Assembly (NCBI RefSeq): GCF_020193575.1
Contig: NZ_JADYVD010000045.1
Span: forward strand, 1-64,000
DNA from: Ensifer sp. IC4062
GTDB taxonomy: Bacteria; Pseudomonadota; Alphaproteobacteria; Rhizobiales; Rhizobiaceae
Length of the DNA: 64,000 nucleotides
Direction: 5' to 3'
Shown: in pieces, positions 22,611-51,141 of the stretch
Position numbering within the stretch: position 1 is the stretch's first letter
Layout of the letters: every line of letters starts with the position of its first letter
The notes under the pieces: model-generated
Database searches by the model: none
What the model saw: only the letters and a program-made list of their open reading frames with translations
What the model was told of the DNA's origin: nothing
Made by a program: the position numbers and the translations under genes

Positions 22611-23327
22611 TCAGTCGCGGTGACGTTGCGGCGCTAGGTTCATCGACTGCGCGTAGGCCAGTGGCGAGCGGTTTCCCGGCATGTTCTCGTCCAGAACCAG
22701 CGTCTTGAGGTCATCGAAGCGGACGTCGAGAGCCACTGCCCGTTGAAGTTTGTCGACTGACCAAACGACGTAGCCAAGCTTCGCGCTGTACCCACACTCA
22801 CATCCGCAGTTGCAATTATGTTCACGTTTTTGCTCGTCTTTGTCTTCGCCCTCGCATTCACATTTCGCTGCGATGATTTTGTGCGGGGAGACGGGTAGAA
22901 TCATGATTTGCGGCTTCGGCAGTTTGTAGCAATGCCCTTCATAGGCATAGCCGTAAATTACCCCAACACTTTCGTATCCAGCGCTCGCGCCAGCATCAAC
23001 CGTTAGATAATGAATATATTTTTCTGTTTTTACCGCAATTATTACATTATCTGGATCGATGCTCGACCTTTTAATCACGTCTTCAATAACATATCCCATT
23101 AATTCAGTAATATCACCGTAAATTTCGGGTGAAAATTTTGGGTTATCTCTCAGACGACCTTCCAATAACTCCCTGTAGTACTTTTGCATGTCGTCTGAAT
23201 CTTTCGGCTTCCTGATACGACCGGGCCTTCCGTAGAGCCTGATTTCTCCGGGGTTGTAGGGACCCCCACGCCCCGTTATCTCGTCCGGGCCTGTGAACAA
23301 GCTTGGATTTCCGCAACAATCGCTCAC
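22611..23327 (-). CDS. Cys-rich protein of unknown function, last gene of the YcaO-TfuA operon (candidate substrate)
   Basis: This 238-residue protein starts at GTG 23327 with AAGGAAAG upstream, 20 bp after the preceding gene. It begins MSDCCGNPS and has, at about 150-182, a run of cysteines CECEG...NCNCGCECGY in an acidic/basic context, followed by KLGYVVWSVDKLQ. No known domain is recognised. The middle of the gene is clearly AT-richer than its neighbours (around 22990-23120), which suggests foreign origin. Because it closes an operon encoding YcaO, TfuA and a metallopeptidase-like protein, it could be the protein or peptide substrate of that machinery. A metal-binding role for the Cys run is the main alternative. 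Confidence 0.6.
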   Translation of the reverse strand: MSDCCGNPSLFTGPDEITGRGGPYNPGEIRLYGRPGRIRKPKDSDDMQKYYRELLEGRLRDNPKFSPEIYGDITELMGYVIEDVIKRSSIDPDNVIIAVKTEKYIHYLTVDAGASAGYESVGVIYGYAYEGHCYKLPKPQIMILPVSPHKIIAAKCECEGEDKDEQKREHNCNCGCECGYSAKLGYVVWSVDKLQRAVALDVRFDDLKTLVLDENMPGNRSPLAYAQSMNLAPQRHRD

Positions 23328-23347
23328 GTTGCTTTCCTTTCTCAGCT

Positions 23348-24532
23348 CTATCTTCGACTGATGATCTCACGCCATGCAAAATTCGATTCCAGTAGCCCGG
23401 CCGCCGGACCATGAGCCGCGGCAATCACTGCGTTTGCCGCCTGATCGAGCCGCAACGTGTTTGGGTCGAGCGTCCGCAGTGCTGCCGCGACCGCCTGGCC
23501 AACTGCATCGCGTGCAGCGGTCAGCGCCAATCTGAAAATCATCGGCTTGACCTGGAAGGCGTCCGCCGTCATCTGGCGGAACCGGTCGAAATCATCCTGC
23601 TCCAGATCTCGAACGTCGATGTCCACAAGCCGTATGTCGGCACAGTCGCGCGCAACCAGTTCCCGATGATAAAGTTCGACGATGGTGTCGAAGATGGCGC
23701 CGATGAACGGAAGTGCTCGGTCATGCACGTTACGCGTCGTCTCGGATACGCGGCGAAAATTGGTGGCGAGACGAATCTGAGTCTCCGGGCTCGTTTCGGC
23801 AAAGCGGTTGAGTTCGTTGTAAAGGAGCAGATTGCCTCTCGTTCGCCGCAACAGCCGGTCGATGGCGGAGTCGAAATGCAGGAAAGAGATCAGCGACACC
23901 ACGTCTGAAAAGGCTTCTGAGAATGGAAAGAAATCGTCCCCCCGGGATGGGGCCGTCGGGATCCCTGTCTCGGAAAGCAAGATAATGTGGCCGACCTCAT
24001 GGGCGATCGCATCGAAATTCAAGGCGTAAGGCCGTCTTATGCCGCCGACATCGGAGCACCCTAGTTCGAGGAAGCCATATCCCGCCTGTGCGTTGTCCCA
24101 GTTTACGAAGGCGACAATCTCGAGCCTCGGAAAGGTTTGGCCAAAAAACCACCGGATCGGGCGGCCCAGATAGCTCTGCCAGATGTCAAGAACGAAATGC
24201 ACGCAGGCATAGGCGTGCACGCCAAGAAATCCCCTCGAGTCAGGTAGCAGATTGTCGAAGTGACGGTCCGGACCGGGGGTTGGTGGAGCACGCCTTGCTC
24301 CGCCGAACGGCGGGAGTTGATTGAAGCTGTACGGCTGCTTGTCCATGAGCGGATCGACCACATACATGGTCGGGTCGCTTGGCCCCTCCCCAATTTCGTC
24401 ACGCGGTATCGAAAGCCAAACGCGGTCCGGCTGTTCATAACCGGGAATGAAAGGCGGCTGGGGAAATATCCAGAAGCGCGTGCCAAGGCGCGCGCTCGCC
24501 GGTTCGAGGACATCGTCTCGAAGCAGACGCAT
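23348..24532 (-). CDS. HExxH metallopeptidase-like protein of the YcaO-TfuA operon
   Basis: This 394-residue protein has HEVGH at residues 178-182 and a downstream SEAFSD with Glu 206, the arrangement of thermolysin-type (gluzincin) zinc sites. No signal peptide is seen, so it should be cytoplasmic. It starts at ATG 24532 with GAGGGGGG upstream, 35 bp after the TfuA gene. A similar HExxH/EAFAD layout occurs in the larger protein at 47455-49590. In this operon it could trim a modified precursor or digest a target. Family assignment beyond 'gluzincin-like' is not possible by eye. Confidence 0.68.
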   Translation of the reverse strand: MRLLRDDVLEPASARLGTRFWIFPQPPFIPGYEQPDRVWLSIPRDEIGEGPSDPTMYVVDPLMDKQPYSFNQLPPFGGARRAPPTPGPDRHFDNLLPDSRGFLGVHAYACVHFVLDIWQSYLGRPIRWFFGQTFPRLEIVAFVNWDNAQAGYGFLELGCSDVGGIRRPYALNFDAIAHEVGHIILLSETGIPTAPSRGDDFFPFSEAFSDVVSLISFLHFDSAIDRLLRRTRGNLLLYNELNRFAETSPETQIRLATNFRRVSETTRNVHDRALPFIGAIFDTIVELYHRELVARDCADIRLVDIDVRDLEQDDFDRFRQMTADAFQVKPMIFRLALTAARDAVGQAVAAALRTLDPNTLRLDQAANAVIAAAHGPAAGLLESNFAWREIISRR

Positions 24533-24567
24533 CGTACAATTGCCCCCCTCGGTGGAAAATCCGGCAA

Positions 24568-25347
24568 TTACGGATTCAATTTATAAGTGTTCACTAAATT
24601 TGAGTCAATGCCGCTAGCCTCGAGATCGCGGATGAAGGTGTTCGTCGCAACCCAGCCGGCGGGGCTGCGCGCCTCTGGGCGTTGCAGTGCAAGGGCGGGC
24701 GCGCGATGCAGTGCGAGAAGCGCGTCGCGCTTCTTCTGTCGCACGATCTCGTTTCGCAGCTTCTTCACCTCGTCGTCCCGCCACCAGGCGGCCCGCAGGA
24801 CGGCGTCGAACGAGCGCTCCCGAAAGTTCATCTCTCGCGCGATCGTTGTGAGCAGATCCCGCTCGGCGGCCCCGATTAGGCCTCGGCGCATCAGGCTCGA
24901 CGACGTTCGCTGAAGATCGACGAGCGCGTCCGTGAGCGGCGGAAAGCCGAGTTCGGCAGGGCCTGAGTGAACGGCAACCGCGTCGTCGGGCCCCAGCCGC
25001 CAGCGCCGATACCATCGATAGATCAGGCCGACACCAATCATGCCGAATGCATCGAGCTCCGCTGCCCGGAGCGCTCCCATGCTGGCGGCACCGATCATTG
25101 CAATGCCTTGCGCCATTGCCCACAGGATTTCCTTGTGCCGGACGGCCGGCCGGTCCTCGAATTGTCCGTCGATCAGAACCATCGCGCGTGGATGAAATGC
25201 ATGGGCGGCAAGCAGAATGTCGCCTTGCGCGGCCGGCTGCAGATAGATGGCGTCGAGCACCGCCTCCGCTTCCGCGAGCCTGAGGGTCGGGCCAAGAAAC
25301 ACCAGGATCGGGCCTTGTTTGCTCGTATCGGTCATTGGCGCTCTCAT
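24568..25347 (-). CDS. TfuA-like protein
   Basis: This 259-residue TfuA-domain protein has VFLGPTLRLAEAEAVLDAIYLQPAAQGD near the start, then ILWAMAQGIAMIGAASMGALRAAEL and GMIGVGLIYRWY, which are the family's landmarks. TfuA was first linked to trifolitoxin production in Rhizobium and acts as partner of YcaO enzymes in thioamide-forming systems. The chosen ATG at 25347 overlaps the YcaO stop in an ATGA arrangement, indicating translational coupling. ATG 25335 is an alternative. Its immediate partner is the upstream YcaO. Confidence 0.85.
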   Translation of the reverse strand: MRAPMTDTSKQGPILVFLGPTLRLAEAEAVLDAIYLQPAAQGDILLAAHAFHPRAMVLIDGQFEDRPAVRHKEILWAMAQGIAMIGAASMGALRAAELDAFGMIGVGLIYRWYRRWRLGPDDAVAVHSGPAELGFPPLTDALVDLQRTSSSLMRRGLIGAAERDLLTTIAREMNFRERSFDAVLRAAWWRDDEVKKLRNEIVRQKKRDALLALHRAPALALQRPEARSPAGWVATNTFIRDLEASGIDSNLVNTYKLNP

Positions 25348-26582
25348 CGCAGAACGGAAAAGGGCGTGGCTCCCGGCAGGATGACCCTCACGCATTGCAC
25401 GCCCGTTTCCTCGTCCCCGCCCACCGGCACCGCCACGACGGGGCCGAGTCCTGCCGCCAGCACCCCGTCGATGAGCGAAGCAAGATCGGCAACCACCGGT
25501 GCCTCACTCGATGCATTTTGCATCGAGGACGCTCCCTCGATAATGAGCTGACGCGCCTGGGAAACGACCGCGTCCATGCTTCTTCGATAGTGCCCTCGGG
25601 TCTGGTCGTCGCGCGCCCCCGATATCGCGCCGGCGCGCGCCGCGAGTGCTTCGAGCATGGCGCTCGCCGCGGCTGCCGCAACGCTTGGACCGGCCGCATA
25701 ACCCTCGGTCGGGAGTGCCAGGATGGGTTCACCGAGGCCCGTTTCGATTGACTGGCACCAGACGACCGGAACACGTGTTGGCGAGGGCGCCAGCCACAGA
25801 CCGAACGACACGCCGCACGCGCCGGCAACGGATCGGATGTGGTCAACTCGGTCCCCCAGCCCCGATGGCGCGAGCCGCATCCGGTCGAAGAAGCCATGTG
25901 TGGTGAAGGCACGCGCAATCGCGTCGCGCTCGATGCATTCGAACAGCCCGTGCACGAATGCGCCGTAGGCCGAAGTATGACAGGCAAGGCCGGTGGTCGT
26001 GCGTGTGAACAGGCCGTCACCGGAGGGCGGCGGCTCGCTATAGCAGGTATGGACGAGCTCAAGGGGAACTGGCCGGGCGGCTCCGGTGGTGATGTCGATC
26101 CCGGTGATCCAATGGATTGCCCTCTTCCGCCAGTTCGCCCCGACCCCTGGTACCAGAAGATTTTCAAACAGACCTTCCGCCAGTCCGAGATCGTCGGCCG
26201 TGGCGAGGAAAACGCGCTCGGCTGGAATGGATTCGGCGAAGAACCGCTCGAGCGATTCCATGATCGCTCCCACCGCCGCCTCCGCCATCGCAAGGCCGCG
26301 GCCGAGAGACGTCACTTCCGAGAGCGCTGCCGGCCGGATCGCCTGGACGACTGGAAAGCCGATCCGGTCGAGCCCGGTCAAATCCGCGACCCGTGTTATC
26401 CGTGCTCGCCGACAAATCGGTATAACTGTCCGAAAGCACTGTTCCATCTTTTCCGGTTCGGCACGCGCCGAAACGGGGGCTCTCAGGCGGGAAAGGATCG
26501 CGTTCCGGAACTCCTGAAGCGTCGAGCCAGAATGCCGCCCGCCACTTGGCCACCGCTCTTCGGGCTCAACGCTCAATGTCAA
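25344..26582 (-). CDS. YcaO-domain ATP-dependent backbone-modifying enzyme
   Basis: This 412-residue YcaO protein shows the ATP/Mg-binding motifs of the family: SLGRGLAMAEAAVGAIMESLERF at 92-114 (acidic residues E101, E109, E112), SAYGAFVHGLFECIERDA at 204-221 (E215, E218), and a third EG-A-SVAAAAASAMLEAL...ARAGAISGARDD segment near 300-330. YcaO enzymes activate peptide amides with ATP to make azolines or, with TfuA, thioamides. The C-terminus lacks the PxPxP seen in azoline-forming types, in keeping with a TfuA partner. It starts at TTG 26582, overlapping the upstream cyclase gene by 17 bp. Confidence 0.88.
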   Translation of the reverse strand: MTLSVEPEERWPSGGRHSGSTLQEFRNAILSRLRAPVSARAEPEKMEQCFRTVIPICRRARITRVADLTGLDRIGFPVVQAIRPAALSEVTSLGRGLAMAEAAVGAIMESLERFFAESIPAERVFLATADDLGLAEGLFENLLVPGVGANWRKRAIHWITGIDITTGAARPVPLELVHTCYSEPPPSGDGLFTRTTTGLACHTSAYGAFVHGLFECIERDAIARAFTTHGFFDRMRLAPSGLGDRVDHIRSVAGACGVSFGLWLAPSPTRVPVVWCQSIETGLGEPILALPTEGYAAGPSVAAAAASAMLEALAARAGAISGARDDQTRGHYRRSMDAVVSQARQLIIEGASSMQNASSEAPVVADLASLIDGVLAAGLGPVVAVPVGGDEETGVQCVRVILPGATPFSVLR

Positions 26583-29500
26583 TCCCGAGCTCCCGGATTG
26601 AGCGTCGTGCCCGCTCGATCAGAGCCTTTGCGCCCTGAAGTTCCGCGATTTCGAGAGCCGACCGCAAGTCGGCCACGACGATATCCTTCGAGGCATTGCC
26701 TCGCGCGTGAAGAACGGCACGGCATCGGTAAAGTTCGGCCAGCCAGTAGGCGTGGTGCGTTTCTTTTGCCTTCTCGATCGCCTCGTTGGCGACTTCGATC
26801 GCCGCCCCGTATTTCTGCGCGAGGCCAAGCATCGTGGCGTGCATATAGAGATAAATCGGAAGGTCTATAACCGCGCCAAGCTGCTTTAGAAGGGAGAGCC
26901 CATCTTGAAATGTCCTGTGACCGCTCGCCAGATTTTCGAGGTTCGCGCAAGCCCAACCTTCGAAAAGCAGCGACATACCCGTCAGGGACTGCATCTCATG
27001 CCTCCCGGCAAATTCTGCCATTCGCCGTGAAACATCGATGAGGCGCTCGAAATCGTCCCGATAGAAGGCGGACACCGCCTCCGTATCAAGCGAATGTGCT
27101 TTGCTCGGTGCATGCGCGATCCTGTCGACAAAGGCGATCATTTCCGATAGCGCCGCATCCGACGCCTTCTGCTCTCCGGTCAGCCACAATGAGAGCGCCA
27201 GTTGTCCGAGGCCGCAAACTTTCGCGTCGTGCCCACCATAGAGAGTGCGGCCCGTTTTCGCCGACTGCTCATCGTAGAGCGCCAACCCCGCTTCGATCGC
27301 CTCTTGGGTCTCGTGATGATGGCCAAGATTGAAGTCGATGGCCCAGATGCAATGGTTGATCTGTAGCCGGATTTCCGGATCTTCGGTCTCCGCTAGCATC
27401 GTCTGCACCTGCAAGGCGCGGTCGTGCATGACGCGAAAATCCGCTCCGGTGAACCACCAGCCCCAATAGATCGGAAACCACTTGGATTGGTCCTCCATCG
27501 GCTGCCTGCGAGCAATCTCCACACCATCCTCATAGAGCTTGCGCGCAGGCGGCGAGTTCAGCCCCACCAGCCCGGTCAGGATCGGCCCGAGCGCGGTCAG
27601 AGCCGAGAGCTGCAGCAGCTCGACTTTGTGCCCGTCGCCTATGCGCTCCGAGAGCGCGAGGGCGTGTTCGAGATATTGGCGCGCCTCGACCATCGCCGAG
27701 CGGCTCGAGCTCTCCTTTCCCGCCGCGATGAACAGCTCGATCGCGTTTTCGAGAAGCCCCGCCCGTTCCGCATGTTCGGCAAGCTCGCCGGTATCGATCC
27801 AGGCTGCGACCTGGCGTTCCTCGCTGACGGCGCCGAAAAGGCGCCGATGCAATGTCTGCCGCTGCTTGCGCAACAGCGCGTTGTAGATCGTCTCCTGGAT
27901 CAGCACGTGCCGGAAGCCGTAGGCGGTGCGCCGCGGCGCTCTGATGCGTATCAGGAATCCGGTATCGCAGAGTATATCGGCCGCAGCTGCCAGCGCCTTC
28001 TTGCTGAATTCCGGCAAGAGCGCGTGCAGCAACGGTAGCGTGAACTGGGAGCCTGCAATCGCTCCCGCTCGCGCGACGTCCCGGGCGGGCCCCAGATGCT
28101 GGAGACGCGCGTCAAGGATGCTCTCGAAGGTCGAGACGTGACTGGGCTTGACACTTTCCGAGAGGTTCATCGTGTCGGCGCCCACGTTCTGCGACGCCCA
28201 TTGGCAGATCTCTTCGATGAAGAGGGGAACGCCGCCCGAAATTCTTTCCGTGACATCGAAAAGTTCGGGAAGCATGGCGAGCCTGTGCTCTGGCCACCTC
28301 GCCCTGATCGCCAGCCGCGTCTCGTCGCGATCGAGCGCGTGCAGGGTAATACGTTTCGGCTTTGCCGCGTCAAGCCAGTGCACCGGGCTACCGGCCGGTT
28401 GGTGTCCTGTCGTCTGGGCTCGCGGGCGTGAGGTGACAATGAGGAGGATCGGAAGCTCGCGTAGGACCTGTGCGGCTTCCGCCAGCAGGTCCTGCGAGGT
28501 GGGGTCTATCCAGTGCACGTCCTCGACCACGATGACGATCGGTCCGTCTTGGCAGGCCGCCTTCAGCGCACGGTACACGGCGCGATGCGCCTTTTCCCGA
28601 ACGGCCTTCGGATCGCTGCCAGGCAAAAACTCGTTTCCCCCCTGCGCTCCGAGCAAATAAGCAAAAACGTCCGTGACTTCCGGATCGTAAATCCCGTTCC
28701 GTTCGAAGAGCTTCGCCACCGCGGCCGCCGTCAGCTGCCCGCTGGCTTCCGAGATGTCGCCGGGAAAACTGTTGCGCAACGGATGCAGCGTCGAGCGGAA
28801 GCCGCCGGGAAGGCATTGGAAGAAAAACAGCTTGGACCGCCGGTCGCGCGTCTTGCGGCGAACCTCCCGCAACAGCCGGGACTTGCCGATGCCAGCCTCT
28901 CCCACGATCAGCAGTACCTCGCCCTCACCGCCAAGCACACCCTCCCAAACCCTGGCGATCGCAGCCAGCTCGCTTTCGCGTCCGATGAACGGGCCACCGA
29001 GTCTTCCATATGCGTAAAAGCGATTAACCTCGACCTTGTGCCCGAGCGCGCGCCACACTTTTTCCGGCTCCGAGAAGCCCTTGAGCGTCTTGCTGCCCTG
29101 AAACACGAAGGTATGCGACCGGCCGGCCAGGTTGCGCGTGTCCTCGGAGACCAGCACGCTGTCCGGTACTGCTATAGACTCCAGCCGGGTTGCCATCGCG
29201 AGGGCCGCGCCGGTGACGGCCTCCTGCGTCCAGTTCTCCATCTTTGCTTCGTTGACGAGCGCAATCGACGTCGCGACACCGACCCGAACGTGCAAATCGG
29301 CACGCCCCGCCTCTCGCCCAACGCGCCTGCAGCCTTCGATGATGTCCAACCCGGCGCGGATGGCGAGCGAGGCCGCATCCTTCGCGTCGAGCTCGATAGG
29401 AAACAGCGCCACGCCACCGTCGCCCGCCTCGTGCTGGATAATGCCTGAATGTGAGGCGATCGATTGTCTCGCCGCAGCCGCAAAGGCGGTCATCAGCTCC

Positions 29501-29661
29501 TGATAGTCTTCGATGTCCATACGTTGGAAAAGATGGGTCGAGCCGACGAGATCGTAGCAGAGCGCAGTTACGATGCGCCGCTCGCTGTCATGCGTGGATG
29601 AACCGCGCCGTGACCGCTTGGTCGATCGTCGTGGTGTGTTGTTCCGGCTCTCGCGAAGCAT
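26566..29661 (-). CDS. Class III nucleotide cyclase/AAA ATPase/TPR signalling protein
   Basis: This 1031-residue protein has a cyclase domain at about 28-205 (Asp 37 in CYDLVGST, Asp 81 in EAGDGG, the two expected metal ligands). An FIGRESEL-led ATPase follows, with Walker A GEAGIGKS at 254-261 and Walker B IVIVVEDVHW at about 375-384, then a long helical repeat region of TPR type to the end. This is the layout of soluble adenylyl-cyclase-like proteins and related rhizobial signal proteins. GGGAG precedes the ATG. It is the first gene of the operon with YcaO and TfuA, so it may sense or gate that pathway. No HTH was seen. Confidence 0.85.
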   Translation of the reverse strand: MLRESRNNTPRRSTKRSRRGSSTHDSERRIVTALCYDLVGSTHLFQRMDIEDYQELMTAFAAAARQSIASHSGIIQHEAGDGGVALFPIELDAKDAASLAIRAGLDIIEGCRRVGREAGRADLHVRVGVATSIALVNEAKMENWTQEAVTGAALAMATRLESIAVPDSVLVSEDTRNLAGRSHTFVFQGSKTLKGFSEPEKVWRALGHKVEVNRFYAYGRLGGPFIGRESELAAIARVWEGVLGGEGEVLLIVGEAGIGKSRLLREVRRKTRDRRSKLFFFQCLPGGFRSTLHPLRNSFPGDISEASGQLTAAAVAKLFERNGIYDPEVTDVFAYLLGAQGGNEFLPGSDPKAVREKAHRAVYRALKAACQDGPIVIVVEDVHWIDPTSQDLLAEAAQVLRELPILLIVTSRPRAQTTGHQPAGSPVHWLDAAKPKRITLHALDRDETRLAIRARWPEHRLAMLPELFDVTERISGGVPLFIEEICQWASQNVGADTMNLSESVKPSHVSTFESILDARLQHLGPARDVARAGAIAGSQFTLPLLHALLPEFSKKALAAAADILCDTGFLIRIRAPRRTAYGFRHVLIQETIYNALLRKQRQTLHRRLFGAVSEERQVAAWIDTGELAEHAERAGLLENAIELFIAAGKESSSRSAMVEARQYLEHALALSERIGDGHKVELLQLSALTALGPILTGLVGLNSPPARKLYEDGVEIARRQPMEDQSKWFPIYWGWWFTGADFRVMHDRALQVQTMLAETEDPEIRLQINHCIWAIDFNLGHHHETQEAIEAGLALYDEQSAKTGRTLYGGHDAKVCGLGQLALSLWLTGEQKASDAALSEMIAFVDRIAHAPSKAHSLDTEAVSAFYRDDFERLIDVSRRMAEFAGRHEMQSLTGMSLLFEGWACANLENLASGHRTFQDGLSLLKQLGAVIDLPIYLYMHATMLGLAQKYGAAIEVANEAIEKAKETHHAYWLAELYRCRAVLHARGNASKDIVVADLRSALEIAELQGAKALIERARRSIRELGIDIER

Positions 29662-45203: not shown

Positions 45204-47273
45204 ATGGAGCTATTCGTCGCGAGAGGTGCTGAATTGCTCGACAGTGATCTTCATTCCTCGGTCCGTGCCGGAGAGCGGGATCGCCGTGACAATCTTAAAC
45301 CCGGTAATCGCTTCCTCGGTCGTGTCGTTGGCTGCACAGGCTCGCGTGCAACAATCGCCGCGGTTGCCGAAAATGGCGAAACCTCGCTGACGGAGCTCTG
45401 GTCGGTCGGTCGCCTGATTTCCATTTCCGTCGGCGCCAACCGCGTCGTCGCGCTGGTCTATGCCATGCAGACCGTCGCCAGCGAATGGGGCGAAGAGGCG
45501 AACAACACCTTCCGCATCGAGGTCGAGCTGATGGGCGAGGTCCACACCGACCCGGACGGGCGCGAGTCGTTCTCCACCGGCATCAGCCAATATCCCTACC
45601 TCGGCGCGATCGCCCACCGCATCCGCGCCACGGACCTTGCCCGCATCTACGAGTCGAGTCAGACGGACAGTTGCGTCATCGGTAAGCTGACCCAGGACGA
45701 AAGCCTCGACGCCACGATCCATGTGCCGTCGATGCTCGCCAAGCATTTTGCCATTGTCGGAACGACGGGCGTCGGCAAGTCGACGGCCCTCACGCTGCTT
45801 CTGCATAAGGCGATCGCTGCCGACCCGAAGATGCGCGTGCTGATCCTCGACCCGCACAACGAGTTCGCCGCCGCCTTCCCGGAACATGCCGTCGTTATCG
45901 ACACGGACACGCTCGACCTCCCCTTCTGGCTCTTCCGGCTGGAAGAATTCGCTGAAGTGATTTTCCGCGGCCGCCCGCCGGTTCCGGAAGAGCTCGACAT
46001 CCTGCGCGATGTCATTCCGGATGCGAAGAAGGCCTTCAAGGGCGGCGAGTCCGGACTGATGCGCCGCCAGAACGAAAAGAGTTCGATCACGGTTGACACG
46101 CCGGTGCCCTATCGCATCGCCGATCTTCTCGCGATGATCGACGAACGCATCGGCCGGCTGGAGGGTCGCACGGACAAGCCGCATCTGCGCTCGCTCAAGA
46201 TCAAGATCGTCTCCGCGATCAACGATCCGCGTTACCACTTCATGTTCTCGTCGAACACGATCACCGATACGATCCAGGACACGATCGCCAAGATCTTCCG
46301 CATTCCCGGCGAAGGCCGGCCGATCGCCACTTTCGAACTCGCCGGCATTCCTTCGGAAGTCGTCAATTCGGTCGCCTCGGTGCTCTGCCGTATGGCGTTC
46401 GAAATTGGGCTCTGGAGCGACGGCGGCATCCATATGCTGGTCGTCTGCGAAGAGGCGCACCGCTACGTGCCGGCCGACGCCTCGCTCGGCTTCCTGCCGA
46501 CCCGCCAGGCGATCGCGCGCATTGCCAAGGAAGGGCGCAAATATGGCGTCTCGCTCGGCATCATCACGCAGCGCCCGGGTGAGCTCGACCCGACCATCCT
46601 GTCGCAATGCTCCACGGTCTTCGCCATGCGGCTTGCCAATGATCGCGACCAGGAGATTATCCGCTCGGCGATCTCGAATTCGTCGATCTCCACCACGAGC
46701 TTCATCTCCTCGATCGGCAACGGCGAAGCAATCGCCTTCGGCGAGGCGGTCGCTGTGCCGATGCGCATGCGCTTCACCCGCGTCGAGGATCGGCACCTTC
46801 CGCGTGCCCACGGCATCACCGACAAGCCGGACGAGGACACGTCCCCGAGCGTCGACCTGCGCTCAATCGTCAGCCGGATGCGCGCGATCTCCGGGCCGGA
46901 CATTTCAACCTTCCAGCAGAGCTATCTGGCCGCGCAGAGTGCCAAGGCGTCTACCTTCGATGACGACGAGCCCGTTCATGAAGTCGCCCACGGCGCCAAC
47001 CAGCCTTCCGAGGCTGAAGTCTGGCACGAGCCGGAGTTCGAGCCCTACCGGCCGGACATGCTTCCGCGCCCGGAGCCGGTCAACCCGCAGCTCGAGCGTT
47101 TCAACCAGATCCGCGAGCAAATCCTCTCCGGCCAGGCTGAAAGGGAAGTCAGTCCGAGACCGCATGCCCCGGATCCACGCCTCACGCAGCCGCCAACCGA
47201 GCCGCGCCGTGAGGGCTCGTCGCTACGCGAAAGCCTGCTCAAACGCCCGCTCGGCAGTCTCATCCGCAAATAG
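45204..47273 (+). CDS. HerA-like hexameric ATPase (DUF87/HAS-barrel)
   Basis: This 689-residue protein has an N-terminal HAS-barrel-like domain (RFLGRVVGCTGSRATIAAV), Walker A GTTGVGKST at about 187-195, LILDPHNEF, Walker B HMLVVCEEAHRYVP at about 410-423, and the ITQRPGELDPTILSQCSTVFAMRLAND segment of the HerA/FtsK-like DNA pump superfamily. The last 130 residues are proline- and charge-rich and probably disordered. HerA proteins usually pair with NurA nuclease or with defence genes; no NurA is adjacent here. Rhizobia often carry this as a stand-alone gene. Role in DNA processing is inferred. Confidence 0.87.
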   Translation: MELFVARGAELLDSDLHSSVRAGERDRRDNLKPGNRFLGRVVGCTGSRATIAAVAENGETSLTELWSVGRLISISVGANRVVALVYAMQTVASEWGEEANNTFRIEVELMGEVHTDPDGRESFSTGISQYPYLGAIAHRIRATDLARIYESSQTDSCVIGKLTQDESLDATIHVPSMLAKHFAIVGTTGVGKSTALTLLLHKAIAADPKMRVLILDPHNEFAAAFPEHAVVIDTDTLDLPFWLFRLEEFAEVIFRGRPPVPEELDILRDVIPDAKKAFKGGESGLMRRQNEKSSITVDTPVPYRIADLLAMIDERIGRLEGRTDKPHLRSLKIKIVSAINDPRYHFMFSSNTITDTIQDTIAKIFRIPGEGRPIATFELAGIPSEVVNSVASVLCRMAFEIGLWSDGGIHMLVVCEEAHRYVPADASLGFLPTRQAIARIAKEGRKYGVSLGIITQRPGELDPTILSQCSTVFAMRLANDRDQEIIRSAISNSSISTTSFISSIGNGEAIAFGEAVAVPMRMRFTRVEDRHLPRAHGITDKPDEDTSPSVDLRSIVSRMRAISGPDISTFQQSYLAAQSAKASTFDDDEPVHEVAHGANQPSEAEVWHEPEFEPYRPDMLPRPEPVNPQLERFNQIREQILSGQAEREVSPRPHAPDPRLTQPPTEPRREGSSLRESLLKRPLGSLIRK

Positions 47274-47454
47274 GCCCGCGAGCGCGACGGGCTTGTCTCG
47301 CCTTCAGCAAATCGCCTCGCCTCCGTATCTGCAATCGTGAGTTGACTTTCCTGTCAGGCGGCCGAATCCTTCCTGTTGCAATATCGAGGTGGCCGAACTT
47401 CAAGGAATGCATCGACAGGAAAGCAAATAGCGGCGGCAATCCCGGGAGGAGCAG

Positions 47455-49590
47455 ATGTCCGTTTTATCGACCATGGCTCCGCGCAAGCTCCGAATCTTCG
47501 CCTTCGACCCGAGCATGGGGCGGCGACACGAAACACTGCCGCTCAATGAAGTGATCGTCTCGATCCCCTGGGAGATGGACAAGCTTGATCCCGGCGTCCC
47601 GTTCGTCGGTCCCGTTGGCGAATATGTCGAGGTCGTCGACTTCGACCCATCGCTCGATCTCGTCTATAGGCCGGTCAACCTGCACGATCCGAGCCTGCTT
47701 GCCGACAATGGCCTCAGACCGGCGGAATGGAACCCGCAATTCCACCAGCAGATGACCTACGCCGTGGCGATGAACACTATCGTCAATTTCGAAAGCGCGC
47801 TCGGCCGGATCGCGCTCTGGGCGCCGCGCGACCGCGACGAGAAAGGCCGATGGATCAACCCGCAATATGTGCAGCGTCTGCGCATCTATCCGCATGCACT
47901 ACGTGACGCCAACGCCTACTATAGCCCTGAGAAAAAGGCCTTGCTCTTCGGCTATTTCGCGGCCGGCGAGGGCCAGTCTGGAGCACCCGCCGGCACCATC
48001 ATATTCACCTGTCTTTCCCACGACATCATCGCCCATGAAACGTCACATGCGCTGCTCGACGGCATGCATCCGCGCTTCAGCGAGGCGACCAATCCGGACG
48101 TGCTCGCGCTGCACGAAGCCTTCGCCGACATCGTCGCGATCTTCCAGCATTTCTCGTATCCGGACGTACTGAAGGACCAGATCGCGCGCACGCGCGGAGA
48201 CCTTGAGAGCCAGAACCTCCTCGGCCAGCTCGCCCAGGAATTCGGCCAGGTGCTCGGCCGCGGGGCGGCGTTGCGCGATGCTCTCGGCGGTTGGAAGGAC
48301 GGCGTCTGGCGGGCGCACGAGCCCAATCCGAAGCTTCTGCGCGAGACGGAGGAGGTGCACGACCGCGGCGCCATTCTGGTGGCCGCCGTGTTCCGGGCCT
48401 TCCTGTCGATCTATCGCGCACGCATATCCGATCTCCTGCGCATCGCGTCGAGCGGCACGGGCATTCTACCCGCGGGCGCGCTGCATCCCGATCTCGTCAA
48501 CCGTCTGGCTAAGGAGGCATCGAAATCGGCCCGGCACATCCTGCAGATGTGCATTCGGGCGCTCGATTATTGTCCGCCCGTCGACGTCACCTTCGGCGAC
48601 TACCTGCGCGCGATTATTACCGCTGACCGCGATCTCTACCCCGAGGACGAGCACAACTATCGCGTCGCGGTGATGGAGGCGTTCCTCGCCTGGGGCATCG
48701 TTCCGCGCGAGATGCCGATCGTTTCTGTCCAGACGCTACTCTGGCCGACGATGGGCCAAGCAGCCGCCGATTATCAAGCCGCCTTCCCCCGCCTGAGCGA
48801 TCTCAAAGGTGATGTCGCCTATCTGCTTTCGCGGCCACTCGAAATGATCGACGAACTCAAGACCCGCAGCGACTTTCACGATAGCGAAGGTCAGAAATTC
48901 CTGGACGGCCTGGATCGCACCGCACAGGAAATCTTCAATGAGCTGACCAAAGCGATGGGCAACCGTCTGCCGCGGACTGCCAAGCGGTCGAAATCGTCAC
49001 TTCGGGAAATTCTCGGCCGCAATCTCCTCGAGCTTGGGCTCGAAGCCGACCGCAAGGTCGAATGGCTGGCGCGCGACCTCTACGGACGGTTGTTCTGGGG
49101 GCTCATCACCGAAGCCAAGAATGCACCCATTCGCGACATCATCCGCATCCGGACGGATGCCGACGCACCGGCGACAGTCCGGCGCAGCAAGATCGTCACC
49201 GGCCCGGCCATCGAAGTGCACAGCGTTCGCATGGCTGCACGCCGCGGCAACCGCGACCAGATCGAGCGCGAATATGTCGTCGAACTGACGCAGACCCGCC
49301 ATGGCTATCTCGACCCCAAGAAGCAGGAGGCGGCGGACAAGGGCAAGCCGCCGAAAGGTCCCCACGATTTCTATTTTCGCCGCGGCTGCACGCTGCTCAT
49401 CGACGCCGAGACTTTCGAGATCCGGCGGGTCATCCGCACGCCGGGTGACATTTGCGACGACGCGGAGCTCGAAAGAATGCGGGCCTACCTGACCCGCCAG
49501 GCTCGGAGGCGGGAAAACGCCTTCACCGGCAGCACGAGCAGACCCGTTCGGCCGGAGATTTTCGCGCATCTTCATCGACAGGGGAGCTAG
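47455..49590 (+). CDS. Large HExxH gluzincin-like metallopeptidase (unknown target)
   Basis: This 711-residue protein has HETSH at residues 194-198 and EAFAD with Glu 221, a thermolysin-type zinc site. No signal peptide or membrane helix was seen. The layout resembles the smaller HExxH protein at 23348-24532, including an arginine- and leucine-rich segment after the zinc site. The C-terminal 200 residues contain LTQTRHGYLDP and FRRGCTLLIDAETFEIRRVIRTPGD, with no family I recognise. The stop is 3 bp before an MBL-fold gene with the same orientation. GGGAGGAGCAG precedes the ATG. A processing or defence enzyme is a guess. Confidence 0.72.
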   Translation: MSVLSTMAPRKLRIFAFDPSMGRRHETLPLNEVIVSIPWEMDKLDPGVPFVGPVGEYVEVVDFDPSLDLVYRPVNLHDPSLLADNGLRPAEWNPQFHQQMTYAVAMNTIVNFESALGRIALWAPRDRDEKGRWINPQYVQRLRIYPHALRDANAYYSPEKKALLFGYFAAGEGQSGAPAGTIIFTCLSHDIIAHETSHALLDGMHPRFSEATNPDVLALHEAFADIVAIFQHFSYPDVLKDQIARTRGDLESQNLLGQLAQEFGQVLGRGAALRDALGGWKDGVWRAHEPNPKLLRETEEVHDRGAILVAAVFRAFLSIYRARISDLLRIASSGTGILPAGALHPDLVNRLAKEASKSARHILQMCIRALDYCPPVDVTFGDYLRAIITADRDLYPEDEHNYRVAVMEAFLAWGIVPREMPIVSVQTLLWPTMGQAAADYQAAFPRLSDLKGDVAYLLSRPLEMIDELKTRSDFHDSEGQKFLDGLDRTAQEIFNELTKAMGNRLPRTAKRSKSSLREILGRNLLELGLEADRKVEWLARDLYGRLFWGLITEAKNAPIRDIIRIRTDADAPATVRRSKIVTGPAIEVHSVRMAARRGNRDQIEREYVVELTQTRHGYLDPKKQEAADKGKPPKGPHDFYFRRGCTLLIDAETFEIRRVIRTPGDICDDAELERMRAYLTRQARRRENAFTGSTSRPVRPEIFAHLHRQGS

Positions 49591-49593
49591 GAG

Positions 49594-51141
49594 ATGCCGA
49601 GAATGCAGGCACCCGAGTCCGGCGTCACGGTGCGCATGTACCGACAGGGCCACGGCGACTGCTTTCTTCTGGCGACGCGCAAGACGGACGGCAGCACCTG
49701 CTACATGCTGATCGACTGCGGCCTATGGACGAACTCCGAAATTAAGCCCGAACAGACGATCGACAAGGTGATCTCCGACATCGCCGAAGCGACCGGCAAC
49801 CGATTGGACGTCGTGCTGGTGACCCATGAGCACATGGATCACGTCAACGGCTTTGCGGCGAAGGATCCCGCGACGAGAAAGCCATGCTTCGACCCGATCG
49901 AGATCGGCGAACTCTGGCTGGCATGGACCGAGGACGATGATGATCCGTTTGCCAATAGCCTGCGCGAGCGCTTCCACGACACGCTGCTCGCCCTGATGGG
50001 CGCCGACGAGCGGCTCGAGCGTGCGGGCTTTGGCATCCATTCGCCGAACCGCACGATGCTGCGCGATCTCCTTTCCTTCGAGACTGGGGAGGATGCCACC
50101 GACGCGCTTCGGGAACGCTTCAGAGACGTCAAACGGCGCCACCCGGCACTCTCTCCTCGAAGGCAGGGCGCGCTTGCCATCGAAGGGATCACCAACAAGC
50201 GCGCCATCAAATATCTGCGCGAACGCATCGCCGGCGAGCCGGTTTTCCTGCGACCCGACCATGAGCCCTACAGGCTGCCGGGCGTCGAGGGCGTGCGAAT
50301 CTATGCGCTTGGACCGCCGCGCGATGTCGCGCTGCTGCTTTCGCTGGAGCCGCAGGGCGAGGAGGAATTCAGTCTGTCGGCCGATGGGGCGACGCTGAGC
50401 CTGCTAACGGCAACTGTCGACGGCGACCCGGAAAACGCCAGCCGGAGCTTCGACCCGCGCTTCGGTATTTCGCGCAAGGACGTCGAGCGGAGCCAAGATG
50501 CATTTCTGAAGGCGTTTTTTGCCGATCACTATGGCCTCAAGGGGAAGCGGAGTGCCGCCGAGGCGTGGCGGCAGATCGACAACGACTGGCTTGAGAGTGC
50601 GGAAACGCTGGCGCTCAGGCTGAACGACGAGGTGAACAACACCAGCCTCGTCATCGCGATCGAACTCCCCGGAACCGGCAAGGTACTGCTCTTCACCGGC
50701 GACGCCCAGCGCGGCAACTGGATCTCCTGGGCGTCGCTCAAATGGACGGTCGATGGCAGGCTCATCACCGCGCGCGACCTTCTCGGCCGCACGGTTCTCT
50801 ACAAGGTCGGCCATCACGGCAGCCACAATGCCACGCTCGACGGTAGCGTGGGGGCGGACTATGCCAACCTCTCGTGGTTGGCAAGCAACGGCTTCCAGGA
50901 CGAATTCGTGGCGATGATCCCGGCCAATACGCCCTGGGCGGCGCATAGGGACAAGCCATGGGAGCATCCGCTTCGCTTCATCGAGGAGAGGCTTATGCAA
51001 AAGGCCCGCGGTCGCGTCTTCCGCAACGATGTCGACCACGTTGCAAAACCCGATGACATCAGCGCCGACGAGTGGCAAAAATTCAAGCGGATCGAGAGCG
51101 ACCTCTTTTTTGAATACACCGTCGCCGACAGCCCGGCGTAA
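49594..51141 (+). CDS. Metallo-beta-lactamase-fold hydrolase, ComEC-like
   Basis: This 515-residue MBL-fold protein has the start TVRMYRQGHGDCFLLATR, the metal motif THEHMDHVNG at about residues 77-86 and the later LFTGDAQRGNW and LYKVGHHGSHNATLDGSVG segments. These resemble the ComEC/Rec2 beta-lactamase-like domain but without its membrane part. It follows the large HExxH gene by 3 bp, so they are co-translated as a two-gene unit. It may hydrolyse a nucleic acid or other phosphodiester. The substrate is not predictable. Confidence 0.8.
   Translation: MPRMQAPESGVTVRMYRQGHGDCFLLATRKTDGSTCYMLIDCGLWTNSEIKPEQTIDKVISDIAEATGNRLDVVLVTHEHMDHVNGFAAKDPATRKPCFDPIEIGELWLAWTEDDDDPFANSLRERFHDTLLALMGADERLERAGFGIHSPNRTMLRDLLSFETGEDATDALRERFRDVKRRHPALSPRRQGALAIEGITNKRAIKYLRERIAGEPVFLRPDHEPYRLPGVEGVRIYALGPPRDVALLLSLEPQGEEEFSLSADGATLSLLTATVDGDPENASRSFDPRFGISRKDVERSQDAFLKAFFADHYGLKGKRSAAEAWRQIDNDWLESAETLALRLNDEVNNTSLVIAIELPGTGKVLLFTGDAQRGNWISWASLKWTVDGRLITARDLLGRTVLYKVGHHGSHNATLDGSVGADYANLSWLASNGFQDEFVAMIPANTPWAAHRDKPWEHPLRFIEERLMQKARGRVFRNDVDHVAKPDDISADEWQKFKRIESDLFFEYTVADSPA

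Follow-up and report, generated by a model that had tools for sequence, protein, structure and literature searches.

What does a YcaO/TfuA pair do when its genes lie in line with those of a nucleotide cyclase/ATPase protein, a peptidase and a protein of no assigned family? The question is raised by a five-gene array on the minus strand of a 64,000-nucleotide stretch from Ensifer sp. IC4062 (contig NZ_JADYVD010000045.1, positions 1 to 64,000; the whole stretch is termed the window). The array probably encodes a cyclase-coupled YcaO/TfuA pathway for a ribosomally synthesized and posttranslationally modified peptide (RiPP), in which the fifth gene (gene 5) would provide a folded precursor and the fourth (PEP) a dedicated peptidase. 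From first to last, the genes, all open reading frames (ORFs), are as follows.

26566-29661, minus strand: CYC, cyclase/ATPase protein, ATG start, 1,031 amino acids (aa), open ORF.
25344-26582, minus strand: YcaO, TTG start, 412 aa, open ORF.
24568-25347, minus strand: TfuA, ATG start, 259 aa if begun at the ATGA overlap (start and overlap checked).
23348-24532, minus strand: PEP, ATG start, 394 aa, open ORF.
22611-23327, minus strand: gene 5, proposed precursor protein, GTG start, 238 aa.

The layout agrees with that given in an earlier, sequence-only reading of the window: all ORFs are open at these positions, with a 17-bp overlap between CYC and YcaO, an ATGA overlap between YcaO and TfuA, and gaps of 35 bp (TfuA to PEP) and 20 bp (PEP to gene 5). 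The gene overlaps and the conserved order suggest a single transcript. A scan for promoter-like sites (4 versus 1.8 expected) and terminator-like sites (4 versus 7.0 expected) was uninformative.

In the proposed pathway, gene 5 would be made as a precursor comprising an enzyme-recognized folded domain and a flexible C-terminal core, present once in the Rhizobiaceae and near relatives and as several tandem copies in distant ones. YcaO, using ATP and with TfuA helping in sulfur supply, would modify the core's peptide backbone, most likely by forming a thioamide, and the candidate site is the invariant glycine of its PG motif (G218). The thermolysin-like PEP would release the core or divide it into its repeat units, and CYC would sense a cue and turn the pathway on, either by regulating the enzymes or via a nucleotide signal. 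The product may act inside the cell or exit by a general route, since the conserved genes include no exporter. The sequence-only reading was right that no transporter is present among the five; at individual loci, transporters do occur in the vicinity (e.g., pump genes next to YcaO in locus L055).

The five-gene arrangement is not due to chance. Among 105 distinct loci of sufficient length (window included; 111 distinct loci in all, designated by L numbers), a set collected almost wholly through PEP, such that the count is conditional on PEP and its presence follows by construction, 98 have all five genes in the same order on one strand. The loci came from genomes, plasmids and named contigs, the last being the best 80 of 283 relatives. 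The sequence-only reading had made its case depend on whether the five families co-occur elsewhere, and the recurrence of the order does not refute it. The exceptions are L053, L054, L055, L153 and L156, in which no STAND-type CYC is in line; L155, in which all five genes can be recognized by eye and gene 5, lacking a BLAST match, was assigned by position and pattern; and L158, in which neither CYC nor YcaO was found (YcaO being sought by tblastn).

A PEP match with an E value of 1e-80 or better occurs in 29 of 32 other genomes of the genus, one truncated by a contig end, and the order adds three genomes with matches at about 1e-74 or better. Across the class, 15 of 385 genomes match at an E value of 0.001, 8 of them (own genome counted) at 1e-100 or better; across the phylum, 13 of 398 match, 7 of them (own genome counted) at 1e-150 or better, all 7 from the same class, and the matches outside the class are weak ones in two genomes. 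Copies often reside on plasmids or megaplasmids, and some are chromosomal (L127 and L140). A plasmid of the cyanobacterium Nostoc also bears a PEP relative, 44.7% identical to that of L155. On this plasmid (Nostoc sp. UHCC 0302, L173, 7001-13190) the PEP relative adjoins a radical SAM protein and two ferritin-like proteins; no gene 5 was seen beside it, and neither YcaO nor TfuA was found on the plasmid.

The case for a precursor rests on gene 5, which follows PEP in all 105 long loci (104 by BLAST and L155 by position and pattern only). The protein has no Pfam or NCBIfam family. The sequence-only reading saw no typical RiPP precursor in the operon and called this protein Cys-rich. Neither description is supported: gene 5 fits a precursor in having a folded domain, a low-confidence tail and, in relatives, a tandem-repeat array, and its cysteines are not conserved, ranging from 0 to 19 across 108 homologues, which disqualifies them as a hallmark. 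Three parts of the protein can be distinguished.

22971-23219, minus strand: residues 37-119, hypervariable segment, with a mean identity of 52% between close pairs.
22701-22970, minus strand: residues 120-209, leader-like beta domain (GVIYGYAYEGHCY ... WSVDKL), the most confident part of the predicted model.
22614-22700, minus strand: residues 210-238, C-terminal tail and proposed core (LVLDENMPGNRSPLAYAQSMNLAPQRHRD), bearing the motif and modeled with low confidence.

In the model, the predicted local distance difference test score (pLDDT) is 89 to 92 at residues 121-150, 89 at residues 181-200, and 50 to 53 at residues 221-238. The tails of the Sinorhizobium, Rhizobium and Mesorhizobium proteins consist of one PGxRSPxxY segment; a pattern requiring its P, G, R, P and Y is present in 101 of the 108 distinct homologues, and the other 7 have repeat or Arg-rich tails. 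Across 59 pairs of loci whose PEP proteins are 95 to 99.9% identical, the mean identity of the tail is 96%, compared with the 52% of the inner segment; the tail falls to 44% at PEP identities of 40 to 60%.

In distant relatives, the tail is an array of short tandem units (VSGAR, VSGSR, VSGAK, RAVMAS, DLVGRS, GMNV, NARGA, GMNAR, AYSGGK or RSSGG). A screen of L053-L055, L062-L141, L152-L160, L173-L178 and L187-L203 for ORFs of at least 100 aa with at least three exact tandem 4- to 7-mers in their second half returned 19 of 1,771 ORFs, all of them gene 5 (that of L155 by position); the screen missed some arrays, including that of L189, for which a longer ORF overlapping it was chosen, as well as imperfect arrays like that of L174. 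Codons were compared between the units of seven proteins: most differences are synonymous and residue changes are few (e.g., VAGAR and RAVMTS), indicating maintenance of the peptide unit as opposed to fresh copying. The single-tail and repeat-type proteins are homologous over residues 116-218 (hhalign, 98.2%, E value of 4.2e-14), and the match between their profiles ends just before the tail. A shared domain with differing tails is the pattern to be expected if a leader domain carries exchangeable cores. Interpreting the arrays as pentapeptide-repeat beta-helices was rejected: periods of 4, 5, 6 and 7 occur among homologues, of which 4, 6 and 7 are incompatible with such a fold. In the gene 5 proteins of L188, L189, L192 and L194, a large insertion of about 100 aa separates the first strand from the main domain; it is missing from the 16 other rows of the alignment.

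Within the Mesorhizobium clade, gene 5 appears to be swapped as a unit while the enzymes stay in place, as is the case with polymorphic products. Among 39 close pairs drawn from 76 loci, with less than 8% change in YcaO, TfuA and PEP, gene 5 differs by more than 30% in 24, all of which fall within 14 Mesorhizobium-clade loci and are not independent. Many of the changes are synonymous: in the swapped pairs, 35 to 59% of the codons for the same residue differ in gene 5, versus 3 to 16% in the other genes, such that whole-gene exchange fits better than positive selection, which was rejected. The same contrast between gene 5 and the enzymes, in weaker form, separates the window from L024.

A separate small precursor gene was also sought among ORFs of 20 to 140 aa lying no more than 900 bp from the operon, in 96 upstream and 103 downstream stretches, and was rejected, the most widespread ORF recurring in only 8 upstream and 2 downstream loci. 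A small, repeat-free gene follows gene 5 in L058 (9417-9782, 121 aa), L174 (8974-9312, 112 aa) and L175 (8961-9293, 110 aa), and could belong to the system there.

The two enzymes that would modify the core belong to the families named by the sequence-only reading. YcaO matches PF02624 (3e-48) in Pfam, and the closest NCBIfam model is TIGR03266 for McrA-glycine thioamidation (4.4e-38, under the cutoff); TfuA matches PF07812 (2.7e-41) and NF033432 (6.9e-50, under the cutoff). Residues E109, E112, E117, E215, E218 and R219 of YcaO, which we take to be those of the ATP/Mg site, are conserved in 102 of 102 sequences, and the protein is probably an ATP-dependent, backbone-modifying enzyme of the thioamide type. 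The ycaO and tfuA genes are adjacent, as they are in YcaO/TfuA clusters for thioamidated RiPPs, and TfuA takes part in sulfur supply (excerpt of PMC8939145). Two other YcaO-TfuA pairs occur in the same genome. One, at 4888-11068 of L172 (G000:C88:88000-102000), has a haem-oxygenase-like gene upstream on the opposite strand, and its TfuA is followed by a 902-aa cyclase/NB-ARC/TPR protein; the other is at about 6200-8310 of L171 (G000:C85:83000-97000). No second strong PEP match was found in this genome.

By motif and predicted structure, PEP is a thermolysin-like zinc metallopeptidase (gluzincin, M4-like), in agreement with the gluzincin-like character already ascribed to it. An HEVGH motif is followed 28 residues on by an invariant ExxxD, with H178, E179, H182, E206 and D210 recovered in both a 10-row and a 39-row alignment. 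The model (pLDDT of 83) has 22 Foldseek matches at an E value of 0.001, and the best matches in the PDB are vibriolysin and thermolysin (E value of 1.8e-5, probability of 1.00, template modeling scores of 0.44/0.56). Fold and HExxH...ExxxD pattern are thus what PEP shares with the M4 enzymes. PEP differs from them in having only 9 to 15% identity to the listed M4/M36 structures, no signal peptide evident by eye, and a gene located in a YcaO/TfuA operon; Pfam and NCBIfam yielded only noise (E values of 0.045 and worse).

A sample unbiased by PEP was obtained with gene 5 of Rhizobium etli p42c as the query, which matched 15 of 247 genomes of the family and 51 plasmid records. All 15 genome loci have a cyclase, 14 have PEP, and 13 have YcaO and TfuA; the lone PEP-less locus, L191, is a 6-kb fragment. 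Tabulated with L053-L055, L153, L155-L158, three hand-picked, closely related loci (L174, L175 and L178) and two loci from Paracoccus (L202 and L203), these make 28 loci, of which 26 have a cyclase, 25 PEP, 23 TfuA and 22 YcaO; the last five loci represent the plasmid records read (5 of 51). L202 and L203 have the cyclase, YcaO, TfuA and gene 5 and lack PEP. Because PEP-free loci and loci free of YcaO/TfuA both exist, gene 5 is the constant partner, and YcaO/TfuA and PEP may plausibly both act on it. In 10 of the 28 loci (L195-L201, L054, L055 and L153), the neighbors of the cyclase include a GNAT acetyltransferase of one type, which could acetylate a released peptide.

These counts bear on the reading in which no peptide is freed at all. 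Gene 5 could itself be the working protein, stable and with its tail thioamidated in situ, like McrA or, reportedly, the ribosomal protein uL16 (PMC13063428), with PEP acting elsewhere or as a maturation factor. The nearest NCBIfam models of both enzymes are those of the McrA-glycine thioamidation pair, the single tail keeps its motif in 101 of 108 homologues, and the conserved genes lack an exporter. Tail repeats of varied sequence and period suit excised cores better, however, and a thermolysin-like peptidase at 14 of 15 loci found by gene 5 alone, together with the exchange of gene 5 as a whole in one clade, renders this explanation unlikely.

Precursor and enzymes are tied to a signaling protein by CYC, in line at 98 of 105 loci, and by the cyclases at 26 of the 28 broader-family loci, a link that supports the sequence-only reading. 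Pfam agrees with its description of a cyclase/AAA/TPR protein in the first two parts: CYC matches PF00211 (4.5e-6) and PF13191 (AAA_16, 1.2e-22) and has a long C-terminal region, in which no TPR model passed in Pfam. The metal-binding aspartates are kept (D37 in 95 and D81 in 98 of 99 sequences), as is the arginine (98 of 99), residue roles that we assign from the alignment and from class III cyclases; the Walker motif residues of the ATPase (GxxGxGKS and EDxHWxD) are retained in 97 to 99 of 99. The genome of the window holds 41 cyclase matches in 7.1 Mb, or about 0.08 expected per 14 kb, as against the 26 of 28 loci observed, a comparison to which no probability is attached, the expectation coming from this genome only, other genomes possibly differing and the 28 loci being related. 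The cyclases of these loci fall into two domain architectures: L155 and L157 have the STAND-type CYC, and the other 24 resemble the cyclase protein found in L054 or that in L174, whose middle part is presumably TolB-like. That of L055 is a cyclase plus TPR protein in Pfam, and the YcaO/TfuA locus L172 represents a third arrangement (cyclase-NB-ARC-TPR). The recurrence of differing cyclase partners at these loci suggests that the link is functional.

An ATPase with a cyclase domain also invites a reading in terms of stress or anti-phage signaling, in which the cyclase/STAND-like ATPase would sense damage or infection and activate PEP, gene 5 would be the effector, and YcaO/TfuA would tune the response. 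The CYC cyclase domain bears a weak likeness to Pycsar cyclases in PADLOC (2.3e-9), gene 5 is swapped between relatives, and many copies are on plasmids or megaplasmids, though some are chromosomal. This reading is nonetheless quite improbable: the four other proteins have no PADLOC match at an E value of 0.01, CYC lacks the catalytic asparagine, and gene 5 has no Pfam effector domain. A known defense system was rejected because the PADLOC matches are confined to the cyclase and the ATPase. It is also highly improbable that the operon makes a conventional secreted antibiotic similar to trifolitoxin or the thioamitides, given a conserved operon with no transporter or immunity gene and a tail motif common to several genera, even with YcaO/TfuA present and more than 500 TfuA-type clusters counted in Rhizobium (excerpt of PMC8120280).

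Several features weigh against the precursor pathway itself. Lysine is the usual residue at the YcaO position corresponding to 95, and this conserved position is Arg in 61 and Lys in only 41 of 102 sequences. The gene 5 model has a mean pLDDT of only 69, a PDB fold search with it gave no match at an E value of 0.001, and the leader is long and, to our knowledge, unlike any known. The single tail, unlike those of many antibiotics, is conserved in motif, and the variable part is the inner segment; the five-residue arrays, for their part, give weak pentapeptide-repeat matches in 3 of 70 members (2.7e-5 at best). L174, L175, L178 and L187 have the cyclase, PEP and gene 5 with no YcaO or TfuA nearby, and in the first three these genes are absent from the whole plasmids (the search covering plasmids only), whereas L053 and L158 show no cyclase. 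The CYC position that we align with the catalytic asparagine is Ala in 86 and Asn in 2 of 99 sequences, and the cyclase domain may thus be inactive, binding nucleotides rather than cyclizing them.

Placed among known systems, the product family is likely to be mostly thioamidated, a variant of those of YcaO/TfuA clusters. The thiovarsolins offer a precedent for repeated thioamidated cores: their cluster in Streptomyces varsoviensis likewise combines YcaO and TfuA with a precursor of repeated short cores, and there the thioamide has been demonstrated (excerpt of PMC6511847). The same excerpt describes no specific protease in that cluster, in contrast to the thermolysin-like peptidase, folded leader-like domain and cyclase/ATPase protein found here, and it reports that thiovarsolins are N-acetylated by an enzyme thought to lie outside the cluster. 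The McrA-glycine thioamidation pair (TIGR03266 and NF033432) supplies the nearest models, yet both scores are under the curated cutoffs, and the proposed target is gene 5 rather than McrA.

CYC resembles the TOMM kinase/cyclase TIGR03903 (TOMM_kin_cyc) over almost its full length (2e-90, 304.2 bits, under the curated cutoff of 705.75; L157, 2.1e-135), differing in that the match begins at profile position 275 and the N-terminal part, which from the name of the model would be the kinase, is absent. The L172 cyclase protein weakly matches TIGR04510 (3.7e-7), a putative peptide modification system cyclase that is not among the matches of the window CYC; as its name implies, cyclases beside peptide-modifying enzymes have been noted before. 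No paper was found in the open-access literature under TIGR03903 or TIGR04510, nor was a description of the cyclase-coupled gene 5 system found in open-access papers. The excerpt of PMC8120280 assigns more than 500 of 2,326 TfuA-type clusters to Rhizobium and names CCRG-2, albusnodin-like, thiopeptide-like and Nif11-like precursor types.

A wider version of the proposal can be put forward only tentatively, and we doubt it more than we believe it: a cyclase-bearing sensor would govern very small thioamidated signal peptides, intracellular or intercellular rather than antibiotic, that a dedicated thermolysin-like protease cuts from a folded, repeat-tailed carrier, in a system widespread in alphaproteobacteria whose cyclase architecture, YcaO/TfuA, peptidase and core repeat are interchangeable around a constant carrier domain. 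Most TfuA-type clusters have no known product, and gene 5 offers a concrete precursor family with a predictable core; the precursor pathway would also give an orphan peptidase a role and would tie peptide backbone modification to nucleotide-cyclase-type signaling proteins in root-nodule bacteria. Should the short repeats be released in thioamidated form, they would represent a new class among small bacterial peptides, and searches for many more could use the carrier domain as a handle.

Elsewhere in the window, positions 45204-51141 of the plus strand encode a HerA-type helicase, a 711-aa protein and an MBL-fold protein. The 711-aa protein has no Pfam match and shows weak similarity to the M4-like peptidase PEP (E value of 2e-9 to A1); in PADLOC, the region gives a strong HerA match and, for the MBL protein, a weak LmuA match. 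This trio is possibly an undescribed defense or repair module, and a Hymenobacter plasmid (L176) also carries an AAA ATPase/M4-like/MBL trio.

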